Part shown: in pieces, positions 10,171 through 38,453 of the stretch | Position numbering within the stretch: position 1 is the stretch's first letter | How the letters are laid out: each line of letters opens with the position of its first letter | Source: a virus | Direction: 5' to 3' (one strand) | Length of the DNA stretch: 64,000 nt | IMG/VR virus record: IMGVR_UViG_3300027841_000073 | Span: 1-64,000 of that record | Position numbers and translations under genes: made by a program | The notes under the pieces: model-generated | Seen by the model: only the letters and a program-made list of their open reading frames with translations | Databases searched by the model: none | Told to the model about the DNA's origin: nothing

Positions 10171-10656
10171 TTATAATTCACCGGCAATAACAAACTCTAA
10201 TTGAGAACTATGATTACCACTTTCTGAATTACCACTATAATTTAAAGCCCCTTGTGGAAAAACTAAATACCCTTTTATTTCTAATATCGCATTTCTATTT
10301 TTTAATTTAGCAATATGCAATTCTCTTACAGCTTTATCCAATGTTAATGCATAATATCCATTACCACTTATCTCTTTTACCCATTGCTTAATCCAATTTT
10401 GAACATTTAAATTTATGTCATCAATAAAATTCAATGTTATTACTTTTAAAGCACTTGTTTTTTCTGGTACAGCAAAAGGTAAAGAAGGTGTTTCAAAAGT
10501 TTTACTTTGAAAAGCATATATAGGTTCTTCAACAGTAGTAGCAGGGAACCACTCTTTAAATGGGTAAGGTGCTGATGGGATTTTTATATCCCATAACCAA
10601 CTTTTACTCCATTCAATCTTACGTAAATCTTCAACATTTTTAAGCCAGATTCCCAT
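10171..10656 (-). CDS. Tail tube protein, gp19-like (second copy)
   Basis: A 161-residue protein with features of the gp19 tube fold: IEWSKSWLWDIKIPSAPYPF at the start, then EEPIYAFQSKTFETPSLPF, ALKVITLNFIDDINLNVQNW, and a final strand set QLEFVIAGEL. It overlaps the 189-residue tube-like gene by one base. Two tube-fold proteins in tandem suggest one is the main tube and the other a tube-initiator or terminal ring. Assignment between them cannot be made here. Confidence 0.65.
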   Translation of the reverse strand: MGIWLKNVEDLRKIEWSKSWLWDIKIPSAPYPFKEWFPATTVEEPIYAFQSKTFETPSLPFAVPEKTSALKVITLNFIDDINLNVQNWIKQWVKEISGNGYYALTLDKAVRELHIAKLKNRNAILEIKGYLVFPQGALNYSGNSESGNHSSQLEFVIAGEL

Positions 10657-11225
10657 TAAAAATTATTTACTCCAAAAGCATCACGATTAGTAATTGAGTA
10701 TTCATTAAAATAATCATACTTCAAAGTGAATACTGGTTTTTGTGGATCAGCTTCATTTCCAAGTTCCGCACCCGGATCACCTAATTCCATTAAAACACCA
10801 ATTAACTTATAACCCCATCTTGCTTTATCAACATTATCAAGTAATGTAATTGTTAATTCAGCCTCTAGTAAATCTTTATCAGCGGTTGTACCTTCACCAC
10901 CGTTTTCTGTACGCCAAATATGCTCACGCCAATCATGTTGAAAACTGATAACTTTATTATTAACTGTTTCGAAGCATGTTAAAGTAATGGTATCATCATA
11001 TTCCCCTTTACCATGCTGGTTTACTCTACTACCTCTAATTCCAATTTGAGTCATGGCAACAGTTAATTTGGGAGTACCAATACTTTCAGCACGAAAATTT
11101 ATATCCTCTGAATTATAGTTTCCACCTAAAACAGCGGGTAATTTAGTGAATTGAACTGCCCATCTATGCAGTTGTGTAAACTGCCCTAAACTTCTAATGT
11201 TTTCAACAGTAGGTCTTAAAGCCAT
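10656..11225 (-). CDS. Tail tube protein, gp19-like (first copy)
   Basis: A 189-residue protein directly after the sheath gene, the usual place of the tube gene. Residues ~20-60 (HRWAVQFTKLPAV, then RAESIGTPKLTVAMTQIGIRG) and the middle (DTITLTCFETVNNKVISFQH, KARWGYKLIGVLMELGDPG) match the strand order of gp19-type tube proteins. A strong SD precedes ATG 11225. A stable hairpin separates it from the sheath gene, which may allow different expression levels. Confidence 0.75.
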   Translation of the reverse strand: MALRPTVENIRSLGQFTQLHRWAVQFTKLPAVLGGNYNSEDINFRAESIGTPKLTVAMTQIGIRGSRVNQHGKGEYDDTITLTCFETVNNKVISFQHDWREHIWRTENGGEGTTADKDLLEAELTITLLDNVDKARWGYKLIGVLMELGDPGAELGNEADPQKPVFTLKYDYFNEYSITNRDAFGVNNF

Positions 11226-11286: not shown

Positions 11287-14200
11287 TCAACCCAATGATA
11301 ATGATGCACCAGTACGAGTAATAATAGTAGTAAAAGGAATTTCTTCAATAGACTTAGTAGGCTGAACAAACAACCATACATTAAGTCTATTTGCATCAAT
11401 ATCTTCATTACTATTATTTGCTTCATCACATTGTGCTCGGAAATCATATACCCCTAAACGTGATTTGATATTTTGCATATAGGAATTAATTCCTTGCTCA
11501 ATCAATTTACGGGTAGAAGCATCATTTTCAAAAGTATTCAAATCAAACAGGAAAGTATCAAGGAAAGCCGCAATAGCAGGTTCAATAACAATAAGTAGTA
11601 ATCTTACATTAATTCTATCATCCGAAGCAGGTATAGCTAATAAGGTTTTTTGTCCCCAAATTCTAATACCACGACCGGGATAGAAATCAATTGGATTAAT
11701 ACCATTGTCATAAAGTACATCTTGATCCCCTTCCAGATATTCACGGGCAACGCCAAGCACATTAAGTATGCCGCGTTTTTCACCGGCAGGTGGATACCAA
11801 ATTTCATAATTACTTGCAGTTTCAGAAATAGCACTACCAACATACCCATCAGGCGGAACATACATATCTCTTGCATTATATTTATCCGTAATAAGTAAAT
11901 GCGGAGTGTATAATGCCGCATATGAAGTATTTGCATTAAGTTCTTCTTTACGATATGCAACTACTTCATTGAGATAATCATTACTAATTTCATCTTCCAA
12001 AGGACAACTTAAAACAGCAAAGCAATCCTTACGTGTTTCACATAAAGTAATCAAACCTTGTTTTTGATAAGAAGGTGTAGCCCAACCACCATCAAGCAGC
12101 AAAGTAACTTGTGAAGCACGTTTATTATAAAATAAATCCAATGCTAATAATTGGTGTGCATCGCTTACGGTATCTCCATCACTACCATTAGCAAGTTGAA
12201 GAATTACGTCTTGATCCTTTGGCAGAATTGAAGAATCAATAGCGGTATTATTAATACCTCTAATGTAATTACTTCTTTGCAGTACAGTTTCAACATAAAT
12301 GGAATTACCATATCCATCTTTTGCATCTTTATCTCTACTGCAAAGATAAGCTGTTTCAGGCTGATAAACAGTACCATCACCTGTTTCAGTTTTCTTCCAT
12401 ACGTAAATAAGGAAAGCACCGGGAACTTTTACAGTATCCGCCGCTTCCTGTTGGCTTAATGTCCAATCTTCGGGATCACCATACGGATAGTGTAATGTAG
12501 TAATGTAAATATCCCTGTTCCAACGTCCTTGATTACTACCATAAATGAGTAAACATTTACGTTCAAGTCCAAGCAATTCTTGGTTTTCATAATTGAGAAT
12601 TGTATGAACTCCAGTACCAGAATCGTTGATTTGAATTGCAACACCTAATTTAGCGGCATTAATACTTGTCGCTAATTTGATTTGATTTGTTGTTGAAAGT
12701 TTAATTACGTAGTAATCCACACCAGAATTTAAACCGGCAGGAAGTGTACCAGTAGAGGTTAATCTAACATCATCAGTTGTTGCAATCCATTCATAGAAAG
12801 TAGCGGACACATTTAAAATGTCATTCGATAAATCACCATCTAAATCAGAAATAGATTCTTTCTCGGTAAAAGTAATTGTATGCACCCCTGTTCCTGTATT
12901 AATAATATCAATAGCAGAACCACCAATACTTCTTGCTAATTGAATTTCAGTACCAGTACCGGGGATAGTATAAAAACTAACGCCTACTCCATCACTACCT
13001 TGTTGCGTAACAACAATATCAAACCCTGTATCAACATCAGCGGCATCAGTACAATTACCAGTAGCAACAACTTCTACTTCAACAAGGGAACCAGTAGGAG
13101 AAGCACTAAAAGTAGTACCAGCGCCACCAACAGCATGAATGGCTGTTGCTACTTTTGTAGCTACTTGTGTAGCTGTTTCACCGGCAAGTAAAGCAACAGG
13201 GATAGGTGTTCCACCCGGAGCAGGATCAATACCCGTAGGATCAACACCTTGTGCAGAAACCGAAGTAGTAACAGGAGAAGTACCATCCGTTGCATCAGTA
13301 CAAGCACCCACCACAACATGAGTACAAGTAACAGTATTAGTACCACCCGCTGACGCACTAAATACAACACCCGCACCACCGACAGCATGTAAAGCTGTTG
13401 CAATTTTACCGGCAACATCAATAGCACTATCACCTGTAACAACATCAACAGGACCAATGGAAGTGCCACCGGGGGCAGGGTCAACACCAACACTATCCTT
13501 GGTAAACCACAAATAGTAAGATGTAGTAGTGGAATCTATGGTAAAGTATTCCCCACCTGCAAAAGTAGTAGCATCAGTACAAAGGATAGATGTAATTTCA
13601 TTTATAGCACCTACTGTAAACCAAACATAATAATTAACAAGTGTATCGGAAATATTAAAGTATTCACCACCTGCTAATGTACTTTCACCATAACAAGTAA
13701 TTTCAAAAAGTTCGGATAAAGCTAATCCTTTTGGCAATGTTCCTGTAGTCGTTAAATTGACAATGTTATTAAGTGTAACAGCATCAAAGAAATTAGCTGT
13801 TACTGTCAATTCATCGGTTACAGCATTAGCGGTAAAAGCAGATGTATCCGCTTTATCCATTAAAGTACCAACAACATCCGTACCCGGAGTAGATAATTCA
13901 ATATACACACCAAGATTTGCATTAACCAAACTATCAGCTAATTTAATTTGGCTTTCACCCACAACTTTTATAACGTAATAATCAGTAGCAGGAAGTAAAT
14001 CAGTTCCAGTAGCATCTTTAGGATAAACAGTAGCGGCAATCTGAATCCTATCCCCTGTTACTGACATATTATTAAATTCATCGGAACAAATAAAAGCATC
14101 CCTATCCATTAAAACAGTAAAAGCAGAACTAAGTCCAGTAAGTTTACCATCACTACTATCCAAATCATAAGAGGATGGGAGACTCATACCATATTCTACT

Positions 14201-14823
14201 TCACCGTTGGAATTAGTACCAATAAGATTTAATGTAGTATCTCCAGAACCATTATCGGTAAATTCTACATAAATACCATTTTCAGCATCTTCTTTACTGG
14301 CCGCCAATTGAATCTGTCTGTTTTCTTCATCAAAGACAATCACATAGTAAGTTGTCAATAATGATAAACCAGTAGGTAATACACCTGTAGTAGTCAATTG
14401 AATTTTTTCAGCGGTGGCTACCATATCAAAAAAGGTATCCGCTATTTCAATTTCTTCTGTTGTACCTGTTGGAAATGTCAATGTACTAGTACCAAAATCA
14501 GGTACAACAATTGCTAAAGATAAAGGGGTATCTTGAGCAAGGAAACAACCACCATAAAGAGGATTATTAGCAGAACGCACCATCCATACTTTATTTGTAT
14601 TTTGTGCTACTGCTAATGCAGAAAAATATGCTTCCGTATAATCCACTTTAATAGTTTGATCCGGGGTATAATACTTTAAAATATCAGCTTCCCCATTTAC
14701 TAATCTTTTAGTATTTACTTCCCCTTTAGCGAATGGGCCTATAATACCTACATACAAACCGGGAAATGAAGGAACTCTTGTATCAAGTTTCCATTCCCTA
14801 ATAATAACTTGCGCTCTTGCCAT
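11287..14823 (-). CDS. Tail sheath protein with large beta-repeat insertion
   Basis: A 1178-residue protein, far longer than common sheaths (about 400-700). Residues 1-~95 (SFPGLYVGIIGPFAKGEV...) and ~745-1178 (DGDTVSDAHQLLALD, then the C-terminal KLIEQGINSYMQNIKSRLG) carry the sheath signature. Between them lies a ~650-residue insert made of repeats. One type has LTTTGTLPxGL, YYVI and IQLAxS landmarks. A second type is a nearly duplicated ~75-residue unit centred on DPAPGGTS/TP and IATALHAVGGAG. The insert would project from the outside of the tail. ATG 14823 has a clear SD (GGAGG). Confidence 0.85.
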   Translation of the reverse strand: MARAQVIIREWKLDTRVPSFPGLYVGIIGPFAKGEVNTKRLVNGEADILKYYTPDQTIKVDYTEAYFSALAVAQNTNKVWMVRSANNPLYGGCFLAQDTPLSLAIVVPDFGTSTLTFPTGTTEEIEIADTFFDMVATAEKIQLTTTGVLPTGLSLLTTYYVIVFDEENRQIQLAASKEDAENGIYVEFTDNGSGDTTLNLIGTNSNGEVEYGMSLPSSYDLDSSDGKLTGLSSAFTVLMDRDAFICSDEFNNMSVTGDRIQIAATVYPKDATGTDLLPATDYYVIKVVGESQIKLADSLVNANLGVYIELSTPGTDVVGTLMDKADTSAFTANAVTDELTVTANFFDAVTLNNIVNLTTTGTLPKGLALSELFEITCYGESTLAGGEYFNISDTLVNYYVWFTVGAINEITSILCTDATTFAGGEYFTIDSTTTSYYLWFTKDSVGVDPAPGGTSIGPVDVVTGDSAIDVAGKIATALHAVGGAGVVFSASAGGTNTVTCTHVVVGACTDATDGTSPVTTSVSAQGVDPTGIDPAPGGTPIPVALLAGETATQVATKVATAIHAVGGAGTTFSASPTGSLVEVEVVATGNCTDAADVDTGFDIVVTQQGSDGVGVSFYTIPGTGTEIQLARSIGGSAIDIINTGTGVHTITFTEKESISDLDGDLSNDILNVSATFYEWIATTDDVRLTSTGTLPAGLNSGVDYYVIKLSTTNQIKLATSINAAKLGVAIQINDSGTGVHTILNYENQELLGLERKCLLIYGSNQGRWNRDIYITTLHYPYGDPEDWTLSQQEAADTVKVPGAFLIYVWKKTETGDGTVYQPETAYLCSRDKDAKDGYGNSIYVETVLQRSNYIRGINNTAIDSSILPKDQDVILQLANGSDGDTVSDAHQLLALDLFYNKRASQVTLLLDGGWATPSYQKQGLITLCETRKDCFAVLSCPLEDEISNDYLNEVVAYRKEELNANTSYAALYTPHLLITDKYNARDMYVPPDGYVGSAISETASNYEIWYPPAGEKRGILNVLGVAREYLEGDQDVLYDNGINPIDFYPGRGIRIWGQKTLLAIPASDDRINVRLLLIVIEPAIAAFLDTFLFDLNTFENDASTRKLIEQGINSYMQNIKSRLGVYDFRAQCDEANNSNEDIDANRLNVWLFVQPTKSIEEIPFTTIITRTGASLSLG

Positions 14824-15044: not shown

Positions 15045-18000
15045 TTATTGTTTGAATTTCTTTTCAAGTATATCTACTTTTAAGTTAAAATCCAATTCAT
15101 TTTTTATTACTATTTTATTTACTTTTAAAGTTTTAGTCAATTCTTTGCTTTCATTTTTGAATTCATTTACATTTTTCAATATATTTATTAATACTGAATC
15201 CTTCTTGAATTTATACATTTTCAATTCAGCAATGATACTTTTTATTACTTTTTCTTTCATTGCAGGTATCCATAATTCAATTACATCACCGATTAATACA
15301 GGAATAATATACAACTGATCCGTTATCCAATTTTTCCTATGTACTTGGTATATTTCTTTCCTGAACAGGATAGATGATCTAAGTATGGCATTTAAGGGCT
15401 TATTTATTTCTTCGAACAGTTCCATTAAAACATCTTTATTCTTTTCGGTCATTACAAATTTTTTACTTTTTAACAGCTTATAAAATAGTACTAATTTTGA
15501 TTTAGTAGCTATCGTTCTATACATTTCAAATTTATCGTAACCTAAAGGCTTTGCAAGTTTAAGTATTTCACTTTCACTATCAGGTTCATATTCTATACCT
15601 ATACCTAAATTACCTGCAAAAATTAAAGTCTTTAAATCAGTAGAAGATTGTAAAGATGGTTCTTTACTTTTCTTTATAAGTTTATCCGGGGTATCAATTG
15701 TAGGTGTAGGTTCAGTTATTTCATCCGCATATTTTTTACGCATTTTCATTAACCATCTATACATATCTATATGATGATTTTTTATTTTATTGGAAGGTCT
15801 ACCACCTTGTGTAAACCAAGTTTTTCTTTCTTCATCATAAATATATTCAGGTGTATCCAATTTTCTTTTACCATCTTGATAAATGGGATACACATTACCG
15901 TCATACTCCAATCTAAAATGATCAGGGAAAGTATCTTTAATAAAGTAGTATTCCCCAATATCTTTTTTGGATTTTTTTACTTTTTCTTTTAATTTATCCA
16001 ATATATCTTTTTTCAATACTTTTTTAGGTTCTACTTCTGGCTCTATTTCTGGTTCAACAGTTTTACTTTTCTTACCAAAATTAAAGCCTAATTCAGTTAA
16101 AGCCTTAATGAATTTTTTATAGGCTTTTGGATTTTTAGCTATATAGGAACTTGCTCTACCAGTAGGTGTAATAAAAGTACCATTAGAATAAACCAGTTTT
16201 AATTCTTCGGAATCGGTTCTCGGTAAATATTGATAAATTTCACCATTAGGATAAACATGGTAGTAAAGCATTATATTACCAGTAGGGTGTTTTACTTTCT
16301 TAAAAATTTTACCTTGATCTTTATCTTTACCTTCTTTTACTCTGGCTTTATTTACTTGTTCTTCTTTTTCTTTTAAATGTTCCGGTAAATCACCTTGGTA
16401 TCCTAAATTATAAAGTGCTTCCTCTATTTTTGATAAAAGTAAATCAAGTTTTGGCACTTTAGCTCTTGTAACTTTTTTACCAGTTTCTTTATCCCTGATG
16501 ACTCCAATTAATTTCTCTTTGTTGTACCTGTAAAACCAAGCAAAATCCTTGAACTCTTTTGCATCTTTATCCCATGTAGCTATATTACCTTTTATATCAA
16601 CCTTTGCTTTTAAACCCCCGATAGTAATAATAGCAGTTTTTAATTGTTTAATTTTCGATTTTTCAATTATTGGTTCTACTTTTTCTTTACCTTTACTCTT
16701 GAATTTATAACCCAATGTCTTTAATGCACGATCAAGTTTATCAAAAGCTTTATCATCCGTTTTAAAATAAATTTTACGGAATGTTTTTAACCCTAACCAA
16801 TCTGGTTCTTTATAAATGGCTAATAAACCACCATCATTTATTGTAAGTAATCTATCATCTACATTTAGTTTATGTAAATTATAAGCTACTTTATTTCCTT
16901 TTTGTTCTTTAACTACTGCGTATTCATTACTACCAATTTGTAATCTCACATAAGGTATACTAAATCCTGTTAAATCTTCATAATCTTTTTTAATTGCTTT
17001 ATCACCAACAACACCAATTTTTGTACCCGGTAAAGTTACCGTTTGCCCTTTTCTATCACCTTCCAGTATTTTTACTAATACGGTAAACTCCCCACTATCT
17101 ATCATATTACCAGTTTTATTTCCAAGTTCATCCAACTCCGGTTCTTTAATTTGTTTTATTTTAGTAATAATACCTTTACCAAATTCAGTAATACATTCAT
17201 ACATTATTAGTTTGGAATAATCATTATCAACTTCTTCTAAAACATCTTTTAAAACTCTACCATCTTCTTTTGGTATGTCTAAGCCTTCGGGCCATGGAAC
17301 TTCCATGGTATCCGTACCTTTCATAGTTTCGCCTGTTGTTTTTATTTCTACCCATTTAGTAGCATCGGGATCTTCATCATTTTTCTTTTGCCATTCATCA
17401 TTTTCCACTTTTCTAAAAGCCTGTAATGATCTTTCTTCTACTGCTTTAAAAGAAGACATAATTATTGTATAAGGTATATCATTACGAATTTCTTGTCCTG
17501 TTAATGGATCAATTTTTACAGGGTTCCTTAAAAAATCCAAGCTAGCTTTTAATTCAGGCAATTTTCTAAATTCTTCTGGTATTTGTTCCATAGTTATAAT
17601 ACCAGAAAGAACAGAATTTTTCTGCATGTTACGCATTACACGTCTTACTTTTAAAACATCAAGAGTCTTATCAACTAAAATCCAATCAATTGTTACTAAT
17701 TCTCTTTGTTTCTTTAATTCACCTGTTTCTTTATCTCTACCCGCAGGTCTATAAATTCGTGCTACTACTTGGTCAACAGCACCACTACTCCAAGGTATAT
17801 CCAACCTAATCATTCTACTTGCAACTTGTAAATTATGTCCTTCCGTTAGACTTTCATCGGACCCTACTAATATTTTTATATTAGCATCTTTTTTAAACCT
17901 TTCTAAATTTTTAACCATACCCCCGGAATAAACAATAGCCATTTTCTTATAATTATCAGGAAGCCCCTTCATTATATCTTGTAGTACTTTTCCTTTATAT

Positions 18001-20699
18001 CTTTGGAGTATCAATACTTTTTCATTAGGTGTTTTTGCAAAATGTTCATCAAGTATTTCTATAATCTTACTTAATTTTGGCGGACGTTTATCATTAATAG
18101 ATAATAAATTAGATAAAGGAGAAGTAGAAGGATCAATTAAAAATCTTTGTATAGGCTGTAATCTTGCTAAATACCAATCGTGAATTTCTTCATCCGGGTT
18201 TTCTTCCATATATCTATTAAGTTCTTCTTTATCTTCAGGGGAAGCCGACTCTAAACTATTTAAAGTTTTTTCTACAATATCATAATACACTTTCATTTGT
18301 GCTTCATTCATTTCAACCGAATGAAATTTATCTTCGATTTTTGGTAAAATCCAAAACCAATCTTTTCTACTATATGTTATATTACCTAATTGAGATATAT
18401 CCCTTAATACTTCTTCATAAGCACCATCTTTAAGAGTATTTGAATACCCCCCTCTTTTACCCGGAAGACAATATTTTTTTCTAAAATCTTTTTCATTACC
18501 TAAAACAGAAGGATCAAGAAAACCAATTTGTCCTACTAAATCCAAACCCCTTGTAGGGGCTAAAGTACCAGTAGCAATACGTCTAATTTTAATTCCAGAA
18601 CGTAAAGCGTAACAAGCTTGTGTTCTTTGGGAAGATTGTTTCTTTATTTTATGAGCTTCGTCAAGTCCAATATAATCCCATTTATAATTACTTAAAAAAT
18701 TGACATAGGGGAATACATGAGTATTAACACCACCTATTTTAAACTTATTTGATTTTTTAGTTATCCAACTATAAGTAGTAACGAATATGGTATTAGGAGG
18801 GGCAGAATTTATTTTAGCACCTAATACTTCATCTAATTTTTTAATAACATCATCATCACTAACATCTTTTGGGAATTTTCCTACCCAACTATCTTCCGTA
18901 TCACTACTTAGTATCATACAATTCATTTTCATTTTAGAAAAATTACGAATTTCATTAAACCAGTTAGTAGTTAAACTATCAGGTATAACCAACAAAGGTT
19001 TTAATATTTCCCCTTTACTTAATTTATTTACCATATCCGCCAAAAGCATGAGCGTCTTTCCCCCACCTGTGGCCACCGAAAGTATTGCAGTATCACCGGC
19101 AAGATTTAATTTGGAAATAGCTTCTGCTTGATGGGGAAAATAAGTTATACTTGGATCAAGATTATCAGGAACAACTGGTAAATCATCAATAGTAGCAGAA
19201 TTTAATTTTTCAATCTGTTCTTTAATTTCCGTTTCCAATGCACCTATTTTACCTACTAATTCTTCTCCTAATTTGAATATAGCAATAGTAGAATAACGAC
19301 GTAAAGGATCAGCTATTATTTTATACCCTTCTCTTGCATTTAAAAGTATATCGCTTGCGGCTTTAAATAATTTTCTTGCTTTATCTTCCCCTAAATACCT
19401 TTCAAAACGTAATATTAAATTTTGTAATGACTTAGCAGAATAAGCATTCATTACATTGTATTCATCTTCTGCTATTCCTGCTTTGGATAAAGCTATTTTA
19501 AATATTTCATCAAAACTTTTATTAATATCCAAAGTACCACGTTTCTGTAAAATGGAATCGTATTCGGCTTTGGCAGTATTATATTTTGCTCTATTAGTTA
19601 ATTCAATAGCCCCACTAATCAAAAATATAGAAGGTATGCCCTCTTTATTTACATAAGAAAGTAACCCTTGATCCACATTCCAATAAATGATGTCTGATTT
19701 AAATTCCAGTTTTTCTATGTCAAAAGTTTTAGTAGTAACATCATAAGAATCTTCAATTTGTTTCTCAATTATATTTCTTCTGTCAATTTTAGGTAAATAT
19801 ATAACAGCATTATTACGTAGCTTTACTATTATGTTGTCCAATTGATTTTTATTTTTAGTAGTAATTTTTTTGGGATTAAAGTAAGGTGTTAAACCTGTTT
19901 TATGTAATCCTTCTTTAGCCCATCCTACTAATGTTTGTGCAATTTTAAATTCTTTTATGGAACTGTTATCACATAATTCTAAAGTTTCAGAAGTATTAAA
20001 ATAAATAGTTATTTTTAAATCCACTAAACCTTGCGTTTGGGATTGAACCCCTTCATATTGAAGCTTATCTAATTCATTTAATAATTTTTCAGTATGGGGT
20101 TCCAATATTTCCATCATCCTACTTGCGGCGGCATCATCTTTAGCAGTAGAAGTCCATTCACGTTCATCTTCATTAAAAGTAAAAATTAGATTACCTTTTT
20201 TAGCTTTACCTCCTTCAGCTTTCTTGTAAATATTACCTTCTTTATCAAGATAGTACCTAATGTAATTCATTTCAAATGGATACAATCTTGATTTTCTTTT
20301 TTCCGCACCCGGTAAACCTAATGCTGTACTTCTTGAGGTAATATTAATATTTATATTTTTATAATTAATTGATCTTTCATCACCATCTAAAAATTGAGGA
20401 CCAGAATAAGAAATAATTTTTATAGGTTCCTTATTTATAAAGGAAACAATACAAGAATTATCATTTTTTATATCTATATTTTTTAAATCATACTCTACTT
20501 CCGCAAATTTTATCATGGCATTTGCGCCACCAAATTGTGCTACTATTTCTGGATTTACTTCTTTACTACCTTTTATTAAGAAAGAATTAAAAATCTTAGA
20601 CAAATTACTAGGTACTATTTTTTCAACAGTAGTTTCCTTTACAGGTTTAGCCCCCACAAATGTTCTTGCATAAGGTCTGATACCATTAATATTAAACAT
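15045..20699 (-). CDS. Giant SNF2-type helicase with C-terminal repeat modules
   Basis: An 1884-residue protein. Residues ~520-1010 form a superfamily-2 SNF2-like engine: Walker A ATGGGKT near 543, DEAH near 685, TGTLAPTR, and C-terminal motifs GHNLQVASRMIRLDIPWSSG and VVARIYRPAGRD. The N-terminal ~500 residues are unrecognised. The C-terminal ~700 residues contain several related modules, each with a G-x-I/L-Y turn and a helix like KLDRALKTLGYKF or KFIKALTELGFNF. A similar module begins the metalloprotease at 50015-51613. Its place in the late virion operon suggests it may be carried in the particle, as P1 DarB-type helicases are, but that is inference. Confidence 0.8.
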   Translation of the reverse strand: MFNINGIRPYARTFVGAKPVKETTVEKIVPSNLSKIFNSFLIKGSKEVNPEIVAQFGGANAMIKFAEVEYDLKNIDIKNDNSCIVSFINKEPIKIISYSGPQFLDGDERSINYKNININITSRSTALGLPGAEKRKSRLYPFEMNYIRYYLDKEGNIYKKAEGGKAKKGNLIFTFNEDEREWTSTAKDDAAASRMMEILEPHTEKLLNELDKLQYEGVQSQTQGLVDLKITIYFNTSETLELCDNSSIKEFKIAQTLVGWAKEGLHKTGLTPYFNPKKITTKNKNQLDNIIVKLRNNAVIYLPKIDRRNIIEKQIEDSYDVTTKTFDIEKLEFKSDIIYWNVDQGLLSYVNKEGIPSIFLISGAIELTNRAKYNTAKAEYDSILQKRGTLDINKSFDEIFKIALSKAGIAEDEYNVMNAYSAKSLQNLILRFERYLGEDKARKLFKAASDILLNAREGYKIIADPLRRYSTIAIFKLGEELVGKIGALETEIKEQIEKLNSATIDDLPVVPDNLDPSITYFPHQAEAISKLNLAGDTAILSVATGGGKTLMLLADMVNKLSKGEILKPLLVIPDSLTTNWFNEIRNFSKMKMNCMILSSDTEDSWVGKFPKDVSDDDVIKKLDEVLGAKINSAPPNTIFVTTYSWITKKSNKFKIGGVNTHVFPYVNFLSNYKWDYIGLDEAHKIKKQSSQRTQACYALRSGIKIRRIATGTLAPTRGLDLVGQIGFLDPSVLGNEKDFRKKYCLPGKRGGYSNTLKDGAYEEVLRDISQLGNITYSRKDWFWILPKIEDKFHSVEMNEAQMKVYYDIVEKTLNSLESASPEDKEELNRYMEENPDEEIHDWYLARLQPIQRFLIDPSTSPLSNLLSINDKRPPKLSKIIEILDEHFAKTPNEKVLILQRYKGKVLQDIMKGLPDNYKKMAIVYSGGMVKNLERFKKDANIKILVGSDESLTEGHNLQVASRMIRLDIPWSSGAVDQVVARIYRPAGRDKETGELKKQRELVTIDWILVDKTLDVLKVRRVMRNMQKNSVLSGIITMEQIPEEFRKLPELKASLDFLRNPVKIDPLTGQEIRNDIPYTIIMSSFKAVEERSLQAFRKVENDEWQKKNDEDPDATKWVEIKTTGETMKGTDTMEVPWPEGLDIPKEDGRVLKDVLEEVDNDYSKLIMYECITEFGKGIITKIKQIKEPELDELGNKTGNMIDSGEFTVLVKILEGDRKGQTVTLPGTKIGVVGDKAIKKDYEDLTGFSIPYVRLQIGSNEYAVVKEQKGNKVAYNLHKLNVDDRLLTINDGGLLAIYKEPDWLGLKTFRKIYFKTDDKAFDKLDRALKTLGYKFKSKGKEKVEPIIEKSKIKQLKTAIITIGGLKAKVDIKGNIATWDKDAKEFKDFAWFYRYNKEKLIGVIRDKETGKKVTRAKVPKLDLLLSKIEEALYNLGYQGDLPEHLKEKEEQVNKARVKEGKDKDQGKIFKKVKHPTGNIMLYYHVYPNGEIYQYLPRTDSEELKLVYSNGTFITPTGRASSYIAKNPKAYKKFIKALTELGFNFGKKSKTVEPEIEPEVEPKKVLKKDILDKLKEKVKKSKKDIGEYYFIKDTFPDHFRLEYDGNVYPIYQDGKRKLDTPEYIYDEERKTWFTQGGRPSNKIKNHHIDMYRWLMKMRKKYADEITEPTPTIDTPDKLIKKSKEPSLQSSTDLKTLIFAGNLGIGIEYEPDSESEILKLAKPLGYDKFEMYRTIATKSKLVLFYKLLKSKKFVMTEKNKDVLMELFEEINKPLNAILRSSILFRKEIYQVHRKNWITDQLYIIPVLIGDVIELWIPAMKEKVIKSIIAELKMYKFKKDSVLINILKNVNEFKNESKELTKTLKVNKIVIKNELDFNLKVDILEKKFKQ

Positions 20700-21714: not shown

Positions 21715-22669
21715 GTCTTATATTAGCAAGGTCATTTACTTGCAATACTTTATTTTTGAATCTGTTAAAATCATCATGGACAAGAAATTGGCCTACTATA
21801 ACAGGACTCATACCACTTTCCACAAGTTTAGTACTTACTTTATCGGAAGTAATACCTTTAGTTCTCATAGCCTCTACTTCTTTTTTAAGTTCATAGTAAA
21901 ACAATTCAGTATTATTGGAATTAGCAAGTATTTTTTTAATGAAAAATTTTAAAGAGTCACTTACTACTTCCGCTTTCATTATTTTATGACAGTTAGGGCA
22001 TACTGTTTTATCGCTGAATACTTCTGCATGAGAACATTGAGGACATACCATATATTTTTTATTTTCTTCTTTCAAACCAATATTAGGGGGTACTACATTA
22101 TCCATCCTTATTCCCATATCTTCCAAATGTAAATCAGGTATTTCACTTTGAAGTTGTTTAATGGCATCCAAAGTATTACTACTTATTTTCTTACTTTCAA
22201 TGGGAGTCATTATTTCATCAACTTCTTTTATAGTAGCAGTAGAAAAATTATTTTTAGCATTTACATATTCACAACATGCTTTTATATGGGCATTAATAGC
22301 ATTTACTTTTTTTGTATCTTGATCATTCATTCGAGAATAATTAATTAGAGCTTGTATAACAGCTAAAGGTTGATTTGTAATTATGATTCTATGGATAAAA
22401 TGACTATTAGGTACTTTTTCAAAGTTAGTATTTTCAGCACAACATAAAATCTTAGGTATTTTGGTAAGTACTTCTTGCATATCCTTTGTATTACTGGTAA
22501 CTACAGACGATGCATATTTATAAGCATCCTTCCAACCTTTTTTATATTTCTTATAATGCTGTTCTGCTATATCCGCTAATGCTTGTTCATGTATGGCATG
22601 TATTTCAAAAATTACCTCATTGGGTAATTTATTTTTTTCAGCACTTGCAATGATATCAATCATTGTCAT
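21707..22669 (-). CDS. Zinc-ribbon protein, 320 residues
   Basis: Helical N-terminal ~200 residues, then a clear zinc ribbon: MVCPQCSHAEVFSDKTVCPNC around residues 213-233 (CPxC-x12-CPxC). The remaining ~85 residues are helical. The combination is reminiscent of phage proteins that bind nucleic acid or polymerase, but the ribbon alone is not diagnostic. It shares overlaps with both neighbours in a compact four-gene block upstream of the helicase gene. Confidence 0.7.
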   Translation of the reverse strand: MTMIDIIASAEKNKLPNEVIFEIHAIHEQALADIAEQHYKKYKKGWKDAYKYASSVVTSNTKDMQEVLTKIPKILCCAENTNFEKVPNSHFIHRIIITNQPLAVIQALINYSRMNDQDTKKVNAINAHIKACCEYVNAKNNFSTATIKEVDEIMTPIESKKISSNTLDAIKQLQSEIPDLHLEDMGIRMDNVVPPNIGLKEENKKYMVCPQCSHAEVFSDKTVCPNCHKIMKAEVVSDSLKFFIKKILANSNNTELFYYELKKEVEAMRTKGITSDKVSTKLVESGMSPVIVGQFLVHDDFNRFKNKVLQVNDLANIRRG

Positions 22670-23123
22670 TCTCCTTTAATAAATCTTTATTTAAATCTTC
22701 GGAATAGACTATGCTTTCATTTAAAAAATTATTAGTAAATATAGGAATTAAAAAGGGCTTATAAACAAGATAAATTTTCAAAAGTAAATGATCTTCCAAG
22801 TACTCGTATTCTTCATCGATTAATTTCATTTTTAAATTTTTTTCAAGTTTATTAGCCCTTTTTTCCTTACCTTCAAAGTTCCATGCTTCTACTGCTAAAT
22901 CTCTTATTACAGTAGGGACTCTTTTGATTATATAATCCTTATATTTTTCATAATCAGTTTTCAACTGTTTTTCTACTTCTGTATCATATTTTTCTGAATC
23001 TTGAATATCAATAAACAAACCTTCATATTTAGGTATAAGGTCTACTTCTACCTTTAATAAATGAAGGTTGTTTTCTACTAATTCTTCGATTAATGATATT
23101 CTAAAATACGTAATTTTTTTCAT
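22656..23123 (-). CDS. Unrecognised 155-residue protein
   Basis: Acidic and helical, with a run EVEKQLKTDYEKYKDYIIKR and a hydrophobic stretch LLLKIYLVYKPFLIPIF near residues 113-129 that may be an amphipathic or membrane-contacting helix. It begins immediately after the stop of the lysine-rich gene and overlaps the zinc-ribbon gene. No function can be assigned. Confidence 0.7.
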   Translation of the reverse strand: MKKITYFRISLIEELVENNLHLLKVEVDLIPKYEGLFIDIQDSEKYDTEVEKQLKTDYEKYKDYIIKRVPTVIRDLAVEAWNFEGKEKRANKLEKNLKMKLIDEEYEYLEDHLLLKIYLVYKPFLIPIFTNNFLNESIVYSEDLNKDLLKENDND

Positions 23124-23414
23124 TTACTTTTTAGCTTTCTTCTTGGCTTCGGCTTCCTTTTTCTTTTTAGCTCTTTCTTTTTCCTTGGCTTTCTTGGCTT
23201 TTTCAGCTTCCTTTTTCTTTTTTGCTTTTTCCTTATCCTTCATTTTCTTATCTCTAATTTTTTGCTTTTTAGCTTGTGCTTCTTTTTGCTTCTTACGTTT
23301 TTCCTTAATCTTTGCTAACTCTTTTTTCTTTTGGTCCGTTGTTTTTTTAAGACTCGACTTCTTCTTGGTATCAGCTTTAATCTTTTTCCCGGTTTTCTTT
23401 TTTCCATTAGCCAT
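23124..23414 (-). CDS. Very lysine-rich helical protein (nucleoid-like candidate)
   Basis: 96 residues of which roughly half are lysine, with Ala, Glu and Arg filling the rest (KKKKEAEKAKKAKEKERAKK). It would form one long, highly charged helix, like the C-terminal tails of bacterial HU/H1-type proteins. It follows the tagged group and precedes the helicase block, so a role in DNA condensation inside the capsid is plausible. Low complexity means homology cannot be judged by eye. Confidence 0.65.
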   Translation of the reverse strand: MANGKKKTGKKIKADTKKKSSLKKTTDQKKKELAKIKEKRKKQKEAQAKKQKIRDKKMKDKEKAKKKKEAEKAKKAKEKERAKKKKEAEAKKKAKK

Positions 23415-23493: not shown

Positions 23494-23730
23494 TTATTTT
23501 TTCTTAGAAGCTCTACTCTTTAATACTTTTAAATAACCTTCATAGTCACTAATACTATTATCTAATTTTTTCAAAACATTGAACATTTTTTTAAGTTTTT
23601 CTTTATCTTCCCCGCTTTTTTTAGCGGCAAGATATTTATCTTCCAATACTTTATATTTTTCATTTAAACCCTTTATTTTATCTGTTAATTTATCTATTTT
23701 ATCTTTAGAACTACCCTTACCCTCTTCTTG
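23494..23730 (-). other. In-frame coding extension after the TAA of the tandem-tag gene (copy 1)
   Basis: Directly after the TAA of the 23731-23940 gene, the same frame stays open for 78 sense codons and then ends with TAA. It encodes a Lys/Glu-rich coiled coil (DKIDKLTDKIKGLNEKYKVL...KSRASKKK). There is no ATG with an SD near its beginning; the first in-frame ATG is ~47 codons in. The second paralog has the same arrangement, which argues against a chance mutation in one copy. Readthrough, re-initiation or parallel decay remain open. Confidence 0.55.
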
Positions 23731-23940
23731 TTATTTACCATGTTTTTGAGCATGTTTACTATGGGGATGTTCTTTTATATATGCTTTTTGTTTTGAAGTA
23801 GGCAAATCATCTAACCAATCAGCATTGACCATCCTACGTTTCAAAATCAATGCTTTCTCTTTAGCGGTAATTTGAAAATTACCTAAAGACTTTTTCCTAC
23901 GTTTTAGGATCAATGCTTTTTCTTGTGCTGTAATCTTCAT
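23731..23940 (-). CDS. Tandem-tag protein, copy 1
   Basis: 69 residues to the first stop. Two tags in a row: MKITAQEKALILKRRK, a short linker SLGNF, then QITAKEKALILKRRM. After VNA comes ADWLDDLPTSKQKAYIKEHP-x-SK, a compact motif shared with the paralog at 24605-24802. SD and leader match other tagged genes. A second tag copy suggests duplication of the tag or two docking sites. The in-frame extension after the stop is listed separately. Confidence 0.75.
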   Translation of the reverse strand: MKITAQEKALILKRRKKSLGNFQITAKEKALILKRRMVNADWLDDLPTSKQKAYIKEHPHSKHAQKHGK

Positions 23941-23997
23941 TTGTTTTTCTCCATTATATTAATTCAAAAGTAACTTTCAATATAGATACAAAGACTA

Positions 23998-24234
23998 CTA
24001 AAAAGTTAATCCTTTAAGAGAATTAAGAGCAGTTTTATAAATATTTTCGTACATATCCCTATCTTTTTTATCATTAGGTGTCATAGTATATTTTAAACCT
24101 ACTTTTTTCATAATTACTATATAGGCTTTCCATGCGGCATTTGCGGCATTTGTAGCTATAGTCTCTGGATTAAACCCTGCTTTTACTTGTCTACGTTTTA
24201 GGATCAATTGTTTTTCTTGTGCTGTAATCTTCAT
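23998..24234 (-). CDS. Tagged protein, 78 residues
   Basis: Starts with the canonical tag MKITAQEKQLILKRRQ, then VKA before a helical body (PETIATNAANAAWKAYIVIM, KDRDMYENIYKTALNSLKG). Its leader (GGGGAATTGAAATGAAGATT) is nearly the same as those of the tagged genes at 30262 and 32237, down to the bases before the ATG. No fold recognised; a small virion-cargo protein by the tag. Confidence 0.75.
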   Translation of the reverse strand: MKITAQEKQLILKRRQVKAGFNPETIATNAANAAWKAYIVIMKKVGLKYTMTPNDKKDRDMYENIYKTALNSLKGLTF

Positions 24235-24259
24235 TTCAATTCCCCTTTAAATATTTATG

Positions 24260-24604
24260 TTATTTTTTATTTTTACTAACTAATTCTTTATACGTTTCAA
24301 CTTTCTTTTTATAAGCATCTTTTATATCTTTTATTTTTTGTGTCTTATCCTTAATATCTCTTTCTAACTTTAGTTTATCACTACTCCACCCTTCATCTTT
24401 TACTTTATCATATTTTTCTTTTAAATCTGTTAATTCATCTATATTTTGATGTAAAAAATTTTTAATTGATTTTAACTCATGTTTAGCACTATATAATTCT
24501 TTTTTTAATGGGGGAGCTTTACTATATTTTTCATAATCTTTTAAACTTTTTTCACTTCTTTTTTTATGTTTTTCCACAAGTTCAGATTTATCTATTTTTT
24601 TAGC
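24260..24604 (-). other. In-frame coding extension after the TAA of the tandem-tag gene (copy 2)
   Basis: After the TAA of the 24605-24802 gene the frame stays open for 114 sense codons. The product would be a Lys/Glu-rich coiled coil (LKKELYSAKHELKSIKNF, KLERDIKDKTQKIKDIKDAY). A GTG at 24577 could start it but has no SD. It has the same order and kind of sequence as the extension of copy 1, while the actual residues have diverged, which suggests selection kept the frame open. Confidence 0.6.
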
Positions 24605-24802
24605 TTATTTAGCACGCTTACTATCAGGATGTTCTTTTATATACCTCTCTTGAGCATCCATACTTAAATCATCAAACCAATCAGCATTAACTTTTCTGCG
24701 TTTCAAAATAAGTTGTTTTTCTTTAGCGGTAATTTGAAAATTACCTAAAGACTTTTCCCTACGTTTCAGAATAAGTTGTTTTTCCATAGCTGTAATCTTC
24801 AT
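24605..24802 (-). CDS. Tandem-tag protein, copy 2
   Basis: 65 residues to the first stop: MKITAMEKQLILKRRE, linker SLGNF, second tag QITAKEKQLILKRRK, VNA, then ADWFDDLSMDAQERYIKEHP-x-SK. A clear paralog of the gene at 23731-23940, with identical linker and the same W-x-DDL...Q-x-x-YIKEHP-x-SK body. Also followed by an in-frame open extension past the TAA. Function unknown. Confidence 0.75.
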   Translation of the reverse strand: MKITAMEKQLILKRREKSLGNFQITAKEKQLILKRRKVNADWFDDLSMDAQERYIKEHPDSKRAK

Positions 24803-25608: not shown

Positions 25609-25911
25609 TTAATCGTTACCGATTTTCAATTTAAGTTTATCTATTGTTTCAATTGCAAGATGCATATCTTTTTCCAATTTTGTTCTTTGTTGAATGATGG
25701 GTTTCATCAAATTTTGAATTTGTTTTAGTAAATCTTCATGGAACTTTGTTTGAGCAAACTTATTTGCTTTATCCATAAGTTTAGTAAATTGATCTAACCC
25801 ATGGATTGACTGACTCAATAAAGCATTGTATTCCCCAATATCATTACTTTCATTTGAATGAATTTTACGCCTTTTTAAAATTAGTTGTTTTTCTTGTGCT
25901 GTAATCTTCAT
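25609..25911 (-). CDS. Tagged helical protein, 100 residues
   Basis: Begins MKITAQEKQLILKRRK, then IHS before a body of long amphipathic helices (HGLDQFTKLMDKANKFAQTK, QRTKLEKDMHLAIETIDKL). Predicted to be a helical bundle or coiled coil. Strong tag match, otherwise unrecognised. Stands alone between the 253-residue structural gene and three further tagged genes. Confidence 0.75.
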   Translation of the reverse strand: MKITAQEKQLILKRRKIHSNESNDIGEYNALLSQSIHGLDQFTKLMDKANKFAQTKFHEDLLKQIQNLMKPIIQQRTKLEKDMHLAIETIDKLKLKIGND

Positions 25912-26320: not shown

Positions 26321-26677
26321 TTATAAATAGGTATCCAGACCCGTTACATCCGTAAATACTTTTTGCAAATCATCCGCATAAATACCTTCCTGCTTTTTTA
26401 CTATTTTAAAATCGAATTTTTTTACTTTATAAAAAGCCATACCATATGTATCGGAAGGTGTAAGAATTATTTTAACATGGTTAATACCTTTTGGATTCTT
26501 TCCTATTTTAAAACTTAAACTTCCATCACTATCAAAAACTAAATTTTTTGCACCTGTCATAGTGATGAATTTATTACCACCCAATTGTTGTAAAATAGTA
26601 TTAGCAATTTGTCTTGCATCTGCTACTATCTTACGTCTTTTTAAAACATATTGTTTTTCTTGTACTGTAATTTTCAT
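26321..26677 (-). CDS. Tagged protein with a mobile-element-type domain (MTGAKN motif)
   Basis: Tag MKITVQEKQYVLKRRK, then IVA. The body has QQLGGNKFITMTGAKN, then LSFKIGKNPKG, VKIILTPSDTYGMAFYKVK and GIYADDLQKVFTDVTGLDTYL. This order (GGNKF-x-MTGAKN, a short beta sheet, a helix ending TGL) is one I recall from small proteins on phages and conjugative elements of unknown function. The fused tag is the feature of note. Function unknown. Confidence 0.7.
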   Translation of the reverse strand: MKITVQEKQYVLKRRKIVADARQIANTILQQLGGNKFITMTGAKNLVFDSDGSLSFKIGKNPKGINHVKIILTPSDTYGMAFYKVKKFDFKIVKKQEGIYADDLQKVFTDVTGLDTYL

Positions 26678-26678
26678 T

Positions 26679-27002
26679 TTATATATTCTTTTTAAAGTAT
26701 TTTTCTAATTCTTCATTAGCTCCTGTAATTTCCTTATTAATGGTATCTAAATTATCTTCTATTAAATTAGAATTTTTTTGAAGAGATTTAATAGCTTCTT
26801 TAATTGTTTGATACGTATTATCCATTAATTCATCTTTTATCTTTACTAATAATTGTGCTAACCTTTCTACTTTGGTATCAAAATCTGAATAATATAATTC
26901 CTTTACAATTTTCAACATCAATTTATGATTTGCTAAAACATCTTCAGCTTTTACTTCCCTACGTTTTAAAATCAAGGCTTTTTCTTGTGCTGTGATTTTC
27001 AT
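26679..27002 (-). CDS. Tagged helical protein, 107 residues
   Basis: Tag MKITAQEKALILKRRE, then VKA. The body is acidic and helical (MLKIVKELYYSDFDTKVERL, LIEDNLDTINKEITGANEEL). A GTATATGTATTT promoter candidate begins 20 nt upstream, so this is the first gene of a transcript that may cover the next several tagged genes. No fold recognised. Confidence 0.75.
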   Translation of the reverse strand: MKITAQEKALILKRREVKAEDVLANHKLMLKIVKELYYSDFDTKVERLAQLLVKIKDELMDNTYQTIKEAIKSLQKNSNLIEDNLDTINKEITGANEELEKYFKKNI

Positions 27003-28549: not shown

Positions 28550-29056
28550 TCAATTGTCCAAATATTCTTTGAGCCATTTTTTAGCTTGCGTAATTTTACG
28601 TGTATTAAACCTTGTAAATTCTTCGCCATTTAAAAATACTAAATAGATACCCTCTTTCGGTTCAAAAAATAAATCATATTTATTACCTTTATATTTAACA
28701 CTACCTTCTCTTACTGCTTTATCATATAGTTTTTGTACCTTGTCCAATAATTGTTTTTCATCCATTATATTTGATATTACTTTTCTACGTTTCAGAATGA
28801 ATTGTTTTTCTTGTGAAGTAATTTTAAAAGACATAATTTGGTTCCTTCTTATTTCACGTATAGCATCATTATAAACCAATTGAAGTGGTAAGGGAATAAT
28901 AGGTTCTGTATTTGTATACAAATATTGATTTACTAATTTTTGCAATTGAAATTCTTTAGATGAATCGAGACTATAATTATAAGATATCTTTTTTACTATT
29001 TTTTCAATAGTAGCTTCATCCAAATTTAAATTTTCTTGAGCAATTGCTTTATCCAT
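28550..29056 (-). CDS. Protein with internal tag, 168 residues
   Basis: The tag FKITSQEKQFILKRRK begins at residue ~77, not at the N-terminus. An internal ATG at 28834 (MSFKITS...) has its own SD (AGAAGGA, 8-9 nt away), so a 94-residue tagged form is likely made. The upstream 74 residues (LDEATIEKIVKKISYNYSLD...) are in frame and helical and have a separate start at 29056. After the tag, a small alpha/beta domain follows (KYDLFFEPKEGIYLVFLNGE, QAKKWLKEYLDN). The long form may be a fusion or two overlapping genes. Confidence 0.65.
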   Translation of the reverse strand: MDKAIAQENLNLDEATIEKIVKKISYNYSLDSSKEFQLQKLVNQYLYTNTEPIIPLPLQLVYNDAIREIRRNQIMSFKITSQEKQFILKRRKVISNIMDEKQLLDKVQKLYDKAVREGSVKYKGNKYDLFFEPKEGIYLVFLNGEEFTRFNTRKITQAKKWLKEYLDN

Positions 29057-30261: not shown

Positions 30262-30615
30262 TTAATTAAGTTCATTTCTGTTCATGTAAAAACCAATAAT
30301 ATAAGTATCTCGTTTGTTTGTGGTAGCTAAAAAGAAGTCTTTAGCACTTTTAATCTTACTTCTAATTTGTTGCTCTGTTTTTTTAAGAGTAACATCAAAC
30401 CATATTTGAAAGCTATCATCTTGTATAACTAATTGTATATCAATCATTTTGTCTTGCTTGTTTAAAGCTTCGGATTTAACATTTATAAATTCTACTCCCC
30501 CTTTTAAAGTAGACCCTCCTAATTTTTTAACCATTGCTTCATACAAATTAGTATTTTCAGCTTTTACTTGTCTACGTTTCAGAATCAATTGTTTTTCTTG
30601 TGCTGTAATCTTCAT
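30262..30615 (-). CDS. Tagged protein, 117 residues
   Basis: Tag MKITAQEKQLILKRRQ, then VKA. The body has NLYEAMVKKLGGSTLKGGVE and later strands (IDIQLVIQDDSFQIWFDVTL), ending in ATTNKRDTYIIGFYMNR. The start 'EAMVKKLGG' resembles the 'TILQQLGG' start of the tagged gene at 26321. The leader before the ATG matches that of the 23998 and 32237 genes. Unknown function. Confidence 0.75.
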   Translation of the reverse strand: MKITAQEKQLILKRRQVKAENTNLYEAMVKKLGGSTLKGGVEFINVKSEALNKQDKMIDIQLVIQDDSFQIWFDVTLKKTEQQIRSKIKSAKDFFLATTNKRDTYIIGFYMNRNELN

Positions 30616-37513: not shown

Positions 37514-37921
37514 TTAAAACTCCTTATATAATTCTTTGAATTGAGGATCATCAGGAAATACATTTGCAATGTTGTGTTTCATATTACCTGAAAAAATAGC
37601 GATATGAGAAATAGTAAGCATTACAGGATATACTTTACCTTCTTTATCAATACCTAATATGGCTTTCTTGGCATAAGTAAGTAGATTAGGCTTACTCAAT
37701 TTACCAGTATTAGGGTCTACTGTAACTCTGGAAACAGTTTCTTTATTCCCCTTTCGTACTACTTCAAAAATAGCTTTAGTCTTTTTAAATCCAAATGGGT
37801 AATCATCTACTTCATAATGATTCTTTTCAAATTTAGCAAAGTCAGGTACAATACCACTACCAGATAATGCTTGCCTACGTTTAAGAATAAGTTGTTTTTC
37901 TTTTGCAGTAATTTTGAACAT
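37514..37921 (-). CDS. Tagged protein, 135 residues
   Basis: Tag MFKITAKEKQLILKRRQ, then ALS. The body is mixed alpha/beta: YPFGFKKTKAIFEVVRKGNK, TVSRVTVDPNTGKLSKPNLL, and IDKEGKVYPVMLTISHIAIF. The DPNTGKL and DKEGKVYPV turns resemble repeated small beta modules. No catalytic motif visible. Located between the kinase-like and an ART-like tagged gene. Confidence 0.75.
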   Translation of the reverse strand: MFKITAKEKQLILKRRQALSGSGIVPDFAKFEKNHYEVDDYPFGFKKTKAIFEVVRKGNKETVSRVTVDPNTGKLSKPNLLTYAKKAILGIDKEGKVYPVMLTISHIAIFSGNMKHNIANVFPDDPQFKELYKEF

Positions 37922-37931
37922 AACATTCTCC

Positions 37932-38453
37932 TTATAATAAAGTAATGTCTTTTTTATTTATTTTTACGCCAGCATCAACTATTACTTCTTGTTCTTTTAA
38001 AGCAGAATCATAATTTAATTCATCCAAACCTACACCACCTGTAAATAATATAAAATTATAAATATCCATAATAATTTTATTAGGTATTTTCTTTTTTAAT
38101 AGTACTTTAATACCTTTACCTTTAGTGAAATTATATTTAGGATCATCAATAAATTTTAAAGCTATCTTTTTATCTTTTGTCCATGACGTTATATTTTTAA
38201 ATACAATTCCCTTATCTAATTGGTCTATAAAAGATTGATCTACTGTCATACCTCTATATAAAACACCATCATATTTAGTAAACATATTAGGTATATCATT
38301 TTTTACTTTTTTTATATATTCTGCGTTTTTTTGCTCACTCTTAAAAAGCCAAGCATCAAGATTTTCCATAAATTTTGGATCATTCATTATATTAGATAGT
38401 ACCATTCTACGTTTAAAAATAAATTCTTTTTCTTTCGCAGTAATTTTAAACAT
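37932..38453 (-). CDS. Tagged arginine-type ADP-ribosyltransferase (R-S-E)
   Basis: 173 residues. Tag MFKITAKEKEFIFKRRM, then VLS. The catalytic pattern of R-S-E mono-ARTs is complete: VLYRGMT with Arg67, FKNITSWTKDKKIAL with Ser90, and KEQEVIVDAG with the E-x-E pair at Glu154/Glu156. This is the class of T4 Alt/ModA and bacterial exoenzymes. Very compact: the domain fills residues ~60-165. The best-supported effector in the tagged set. Arginine is the likely acceptor, as is usual for E-x-E enzymes. Confidence 0.75.
   Translation of the reverse strand: MFKITAKEKEFIFKRRMVLSNIMNDPKFMENLDAWLFKSEQKNAEYIKKVKNDIPNMFTKYDGVLYRGMTVDQSFIDQLDKGIVFKNITSWTKDKKIALKFIDDPKYNFTKGKGIKVLLKKKIPNKIIMDIYNFILFTGGVGLDELNYDSALKEQEVIVDAGVKINKKDITLL

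Follow-up and report, generated by a model that had tools for sequence, protein, structure and literature searches.

In the RNA phage Qbeta, a leaky in-frame stop at the coat/A1 locus yields mostly a short protein, together with small amounts of a virion protein that is extended at its C-terminus. The readthrough that yields A1 uses UGA. In-frame stops inside phage genes are also described for crAss-like phages of genetic code 15, in which reassigned TAG is read as Gln (PMC9523058). In E. coli, UAA is the most accurate stop, with a mean readthrough of ~0.01-0.05% in a reporter library (PMC11126739), and UAAU is held to be the most efficient bacterial termination signal (PMC5289835). In-frame stop hopping has been seen with synthetic E. 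coli constructs but, according to a recoding review, has no known natural case (PMC5009743).

Here, two neighbouring genes of an uncultivated tailed phage each have a protein body stranded behind an in-frame UAA. This double case is real and unusual. Readthrough of both genes would give the same outcome as in Qbeta, a main short and a minor extended product; unlike in Qbeta, the stop is UAA, the phage is a tailed dsDNA phage, two tag proteins are involved and the readthrough is putative. The genes resemble those of stop-reassigned crAss-like phages in having in-frame stops, but the stop is TAA instead of TAG, only two genes are affected, and TAA is otherwise a normal stop. Low-level UAA readthrough of both genes is the leading reading, with a probability of roughly 0.45, and is favoured over recent nonsense mutation. 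If true, it would be a case of readthrough at UAA in a tailed DNA phage, with one design in two neighbouring genes, and it would point to a new way of weakening UAA termination; gene callers would lose the body in proteins built this way. Should the stops instead be recent mutations, the locus has simply two truncated genes of an ordinary sort.

Layout of the two interrupted genes

The IMG/VR record (IMGVR_UViG_3300027841_000073) has 73,712 bases and is A+T-rich, with 30% GC. The window, which is the whole stretch analysed, covers its positions 1 to 64,000. Searches of IMG/VR, GTDB genomes and INPHARED with two neighbouring/marker proteins, the 65-aa paralog, three tag patterns and the module patterns found no close relatives, only distant module-bearing phages. 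The features of the window that concern the two genes and their setting are the following.

10656-11225: tail tube
11287-14823: sheath
15045-20699: SNF2-type helicase, 1884 aa
23494-23730, minus strand: paralog 1 extension, 78 in-frame codons and then TAA; Lys/Glu-rich, predicted two-helix hairpin
23731-23733, minus strand: in-frame TAA of paralog 1, context AAA-TAA-CAA
23731-23940, minus strand: paralog 1 short ORF, 69 codons; two KITAxEKxLILKRR tags, module W-L-DDL..YIKEHPHSKHA, then TAA; SD GGAG upstream
23998-24234, minus strand: single-tag gene between both paralogs, uninterrupted, 78 aa
24260-24604, minus strand: paralog 2 extension, 114 in-frame codons and then TAA; Lys/Glu-rich, predicted helical hairpin
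24605-24607, minus strand: in-frame TAA of paralog 2, context AAA-TAA-GCT
24605-24802, minus strand: paralog 2 short ORF, 65 codons; two tags, module W-F-DDL..YIKEHPDSKRA, then TAA; SD GGGAG upstream

The two short ORFs and their extensions are as the initial annotation had described them, including the tags, the W-x-DDL...YIKEHPxSK motif, the codons CAA and GCT after the stops, and the length of both open stretches. Close by, the gene at 23124-23414 on the minus strand encodes a 96-aa protein composed almost wholly of Lys, Ala and Glu. Its TAA directly abuts the ATG of 22656-23123, which has no SD.

Coding signal and predicted fold of the extensions

The two extensions are clearly genuine protein-coding sequence. 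In a codon model trained on 49 window genes, the extensions have in-frame coding scores per codon of 0.55 and 0.545. Known gene pieces have a median of 0.46 (5-95% range, 0.22-0.68), and the value for off-frame pieces is -0.17. Both remaining forward frames are dense in stops, with 8 and 19 (27 in total) in the paralog 1 extension and 13 and 27 (40 in total) in the paralog 2 extension. Among 20,000 random sequences with matched first-order composition, not one was open over the extension length. These three results bear out the earlier judgement that chance is unlikely to have kept the extensions open.

In both extensions, the coding signal starts at the first codon 3' of TAA. A scan for ATG, GTG and TTG found no SD-supported start in either extension, as had been noted before. 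The first candidates, both without SD, are a TTG 29 codons into the paralog 1 extension and a GTG 10 codons into that of paralog 2. In paralog 1, the coding score is 0.62-0.72 across codons 66-104, and the signal precedes the first TTG by 28 codons. Since no start codon accounts for the coding signal of paralog 1, readthrough or in-frame bypass is the simplest route to the extension.

The bodies could also be separate cistrons, translated from an SD-less non-AUG start by ribosomes that terminate at TAA (translational coupling). The gene at 22656-23123 provides a precedent in the same genome, as it starts at TAAATG without SD. The in-frame string AAAATAGATAAAT near the start of both extensions and the GTG of paralog 2, 10 codons past the stop, are also consistent with such a start. 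Nevertheless, the extension of paralog 1 scores as coding over its first 28 codons, which contain no ATG, GTG or TTG, SD is absent in both extensions, and all other downstream genes have ATG, GTG or TTG within ~12 codons of the stop. Thus, translational coupling is improbable.

On the gene strand of the record, the two paralogs are the only unexplained cases of a stop followed by an open frame, long open frames opposite genes or in gene-poor stretches being left out as shadow frames. Other gene-strand stops with a long open frame beyond have an ordinary start within ~12 codons, nearly all with SD. Both cases are also the only two module-bearing genes in the genome.

An error of assembly or sequencing, or a mixed-strain consensus, is conceivable for an uncultivated IMG/VR record. 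It would require two independent substitutions at similar places in frames that are otherwise intact, and we regard it as very improbable. The probability that this phage reads TAA as sense is close to nil. The two open extensions are all that speaks for it, whereas TAA ends 45 of the 71 curated genes, usually just ahead of an SD and the next start. Genome-wide recoding of TAA is refuted by this count, and TAA is a normal stop elsewhere, in agreement with the initial annotation.

AlphaFold models were made from single sequences of the read-through proteins, with TAA taken as Lys. Both extensions are predicted with confidence to be helical hairpins, formed by residues 78-109 and 113-146 in paralog 1 and by residues 98-134 and 141-179 in paralog 2, with pLDDT of ~85-96 across most of both hairpins. 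The read-through proteins had no match above cut-off in PHROGs and Pfam, the structure search with the paralog 2 model gave no match at E<=0.001, and tblastn of the paralog 2 extension against INPHARED found no relative.

The two extensions had been described as diverged in sequence yet open. Their openness stands, but there is no significant protein similarity between them from which divergence could be read, and they may be unrelated bodies, to judge from this comparison. At the protein level, homology of the two extensions is not significant. The shared in-frame 13-base string near the start (AAAATAGATAAAT) is only suggestive, with p of ~0.008 in the first 60 nt and 0.2 over the whole extension.

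The module in other phages and the origin of the stops

Profile and pattern searches found the W..DL..YIKEHPxSK module in IMG/VR records, Burkholderia phages BcepSauron/Saruman, phage NCTB, Pseudomonas phage HRDY3, and Rhizobium phage RHEph12. Two INPHARED matches (L061 and L062) were left out because they lie in another frame than the annotated gene. Both paralogs fit the module pattern W..[LM][ST]....Y.KEHP.SK.A. That the W-x-DDL...YIKEHPxSK stretch of the paralogs is part of a module shared with other large phages is a new finding of this analysis. BcepSauron_075, NCTB BN7874_233, HRDY3 XDJ15077.1, and IMG/VR records with W[FW]xxLS..YxKEHPxSKYAK are like the paralogs in having the module near the N-terminus, usually behind a short tag-like leader. 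HRDY3 XDJ15077.1, of 102 aa, consists of the module and a helical-looking body. Unlike both paralogs, these proteins of large phages have no stop between module and body.

In 19 ORFs with an N-terminal or internal module, roughly 75-540 codons follow without a stop, and a stop at the module/body border was seen in none of the distant relatives. Both paralogs depart from this arrangement, with TAA 4 and 8 codons past the module. Because the module elsewhere runs uninterrupted into the body, the extensions occupy the normal body position. Based on this position and the confident hairpin folds, each locus appears to be one gene for tag, module and coiled coil, broken by an in-frame TAA.

Two other arrangements of the module were observed. 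In Xanthomonas phage PhiXhv-16 (L060, 1501-1605), an HPxSK-type module stands at the C-terminus of a topoisomerase, suggesting that the module is usable at either protein end. In BcepSauron (L010, 2992-4722), a 576-aa protein adjoining the tail tube has three module copies, the first of them behind an N-terminal ITA-type tag.

For the interrupted genes, we infer that ribosomes reach the body from the upstream start, that they do so by readthrough, and that virions contain the proteins. Each locus would encode N-terminal tag repeats, then the short module W..DL..YIKEHPxSK and lastly a body in the form of a coiled-coil hairpin, with UAA at the module/body junction. Most ribosomes would stop at UAA and release a tag-module peptide of 65-69 residues. 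A few would continue in frame beyond UAA, either through near-cognate readthrough or by hopping in frame, and their product, a minor form of 148-180 residues, would include the hairpin. It is a more tentative proposal that such readthrough is programmed in this dsDNA tailed phage and sets the ratio of the bare tag-module peptide to the minor hairpin form, which would make the pair a counterpart of known leaky-stop virion proteins at the tightest of the stop codons.

Programmed readthrough had been suggested in the initial annotation, and the evidence on it is divided. The coding signal from the stop onward, the lack of an SD start, the body position of the extensions, the uniqueness of the two cases in the genome, the openness of the frames relative to neutral decay, and the predicted hairpins argue for it. 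The contexts are mildly in favour. The +4 base is C in paralog 1 and G in paralog 2, and C or G is rarer at the TAA stops of the phage itself (8/45). Both stops are preceded by AAA, which is the last codon in 6 of 55 genes. On the other side are the tight UAA termination in E. coli, the unlike contexts of the two stops, with differing +4 bases, their positions relative to the motif, which differ by 4 codons, and the uninterrupted distant relatives. No stable RNA structure was found 3' of either stop (z of 0.75, 1.05, -0.76, and -1.26), and the record has no suppressor tRNA or tmRNA. Compared with known readthrough genes, the loci have in-frame coding sequence directly 3' of the stop and an extension with no standard start of its own, but neither a leaky context (UAA-C and UAA-G) nor a 3' stimulatory structure. 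The combination expected for stop reassignment, a stop frequent inside genes and a suppressor tRNA, is absent.

Alternatively, two recent nonsense mutations, independent or aided by recombination between the paralogs, may have truncated continuous genes and left the extensions as fresh pseudogene tails; the short tag-module peptide may then be neutral or favoured. A continuous ancestor is likely, since all module relatives are uninterrupted, and the Lys-rich codons are one step off TAA. The paralogs also exchange sequence, as indicated by an identical stretch of 37 bases in the tag region. The sequence beside the stops, however, is without recent exchange between the paralogs. Moreover, the only two such genes would each need an event of their own, in both cases no more than 8 codons from where the module ends, and no other similarly broken gene was found on the record. 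Random mutation would rarely hit just the two module-bearing genes, which counts for readthrough.

The time over which the frames could have stayed open was also considered. Between the two paralogs, the short ORFs show dN of 0.18 and dS of ~0.76 (NG86, 62 codons). Under neutral decay, 49 nonsense hits are expected per substitution per site over both extensions. The chance that both frames are still open is P 0.007 at 0.1 substitutions per site and P 0.086 at ~0.05, and the open frames are thus compatible with recent nonsense mutations up to the latter value. Taken together, recent nonsense mutation is the main rival reading and somewhat unlikely.

If the stop predated the duplication and the extensions were untranslated, both frames would be closed by nonsense mutation. 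The alignment around the stops can be read as one common stop plus a 12-base insertion or as two events that occurred separately, so that an ancient stop common to the paralogs is possible; the stops are not equidistant from the motif (8 versus 4 codons past HPxS). Such an ancient shared stop, if real, would prove selection on the extensions.

The shared tag

The tag KITAxEKxxILKRR is carried by ~20 otherwise unrelated window genes, mostly at the N-terminus. Its copies are as follows.

Minus strand, tag copies: 2490-2530, 23834-23937, 24191-24231, 24696-24799, 25868-25908, 26635-26674, 26959-26999
Minus strand, further tag copies: 28785-28825, 30572-30612, 37875-37915, 38407-38447, 46053-46093, 48028-48068, and others

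No contig in IMG/VR or GTDB matched the tag patterns. Short N-terminal tags common to many otherwise unrelated proteins are likewise found in the T4 CTS and in the internal head proteins of SPN3US and phiKZ; the propeptides of SPN3US head proteins have been described (PMC10052503). The capsid-targeting propeptides of T4, SPN3US, and phiKZ are unrelated in sequence to the tag of this phage, for which a targeting role is putative. Sharing of one short tag by many unrelated proteins is what would be expected of a signal directing cargo to the prohead. The tag looks like a virion-targeting signal, and both paralog proteins are probably packaged in the virion, judging only from the tags they share with other genes. 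A [VI]x[AS] step often comes directly behind the tag and could be a protease site.

In the minus-strand gene at 48434-49096, unlike in the other genes, the tag is apparently C-terminal, with KITSSEKQFILKRR ~20 codons ahead of the stop. The gene at 43920-45734, also on the minus strand, encodes an AAA+ ATPase that has the tag and is interrupted by an intein containing an HNH endonuclease (Pfam Intein_splicing, AAA, and HNH_3).
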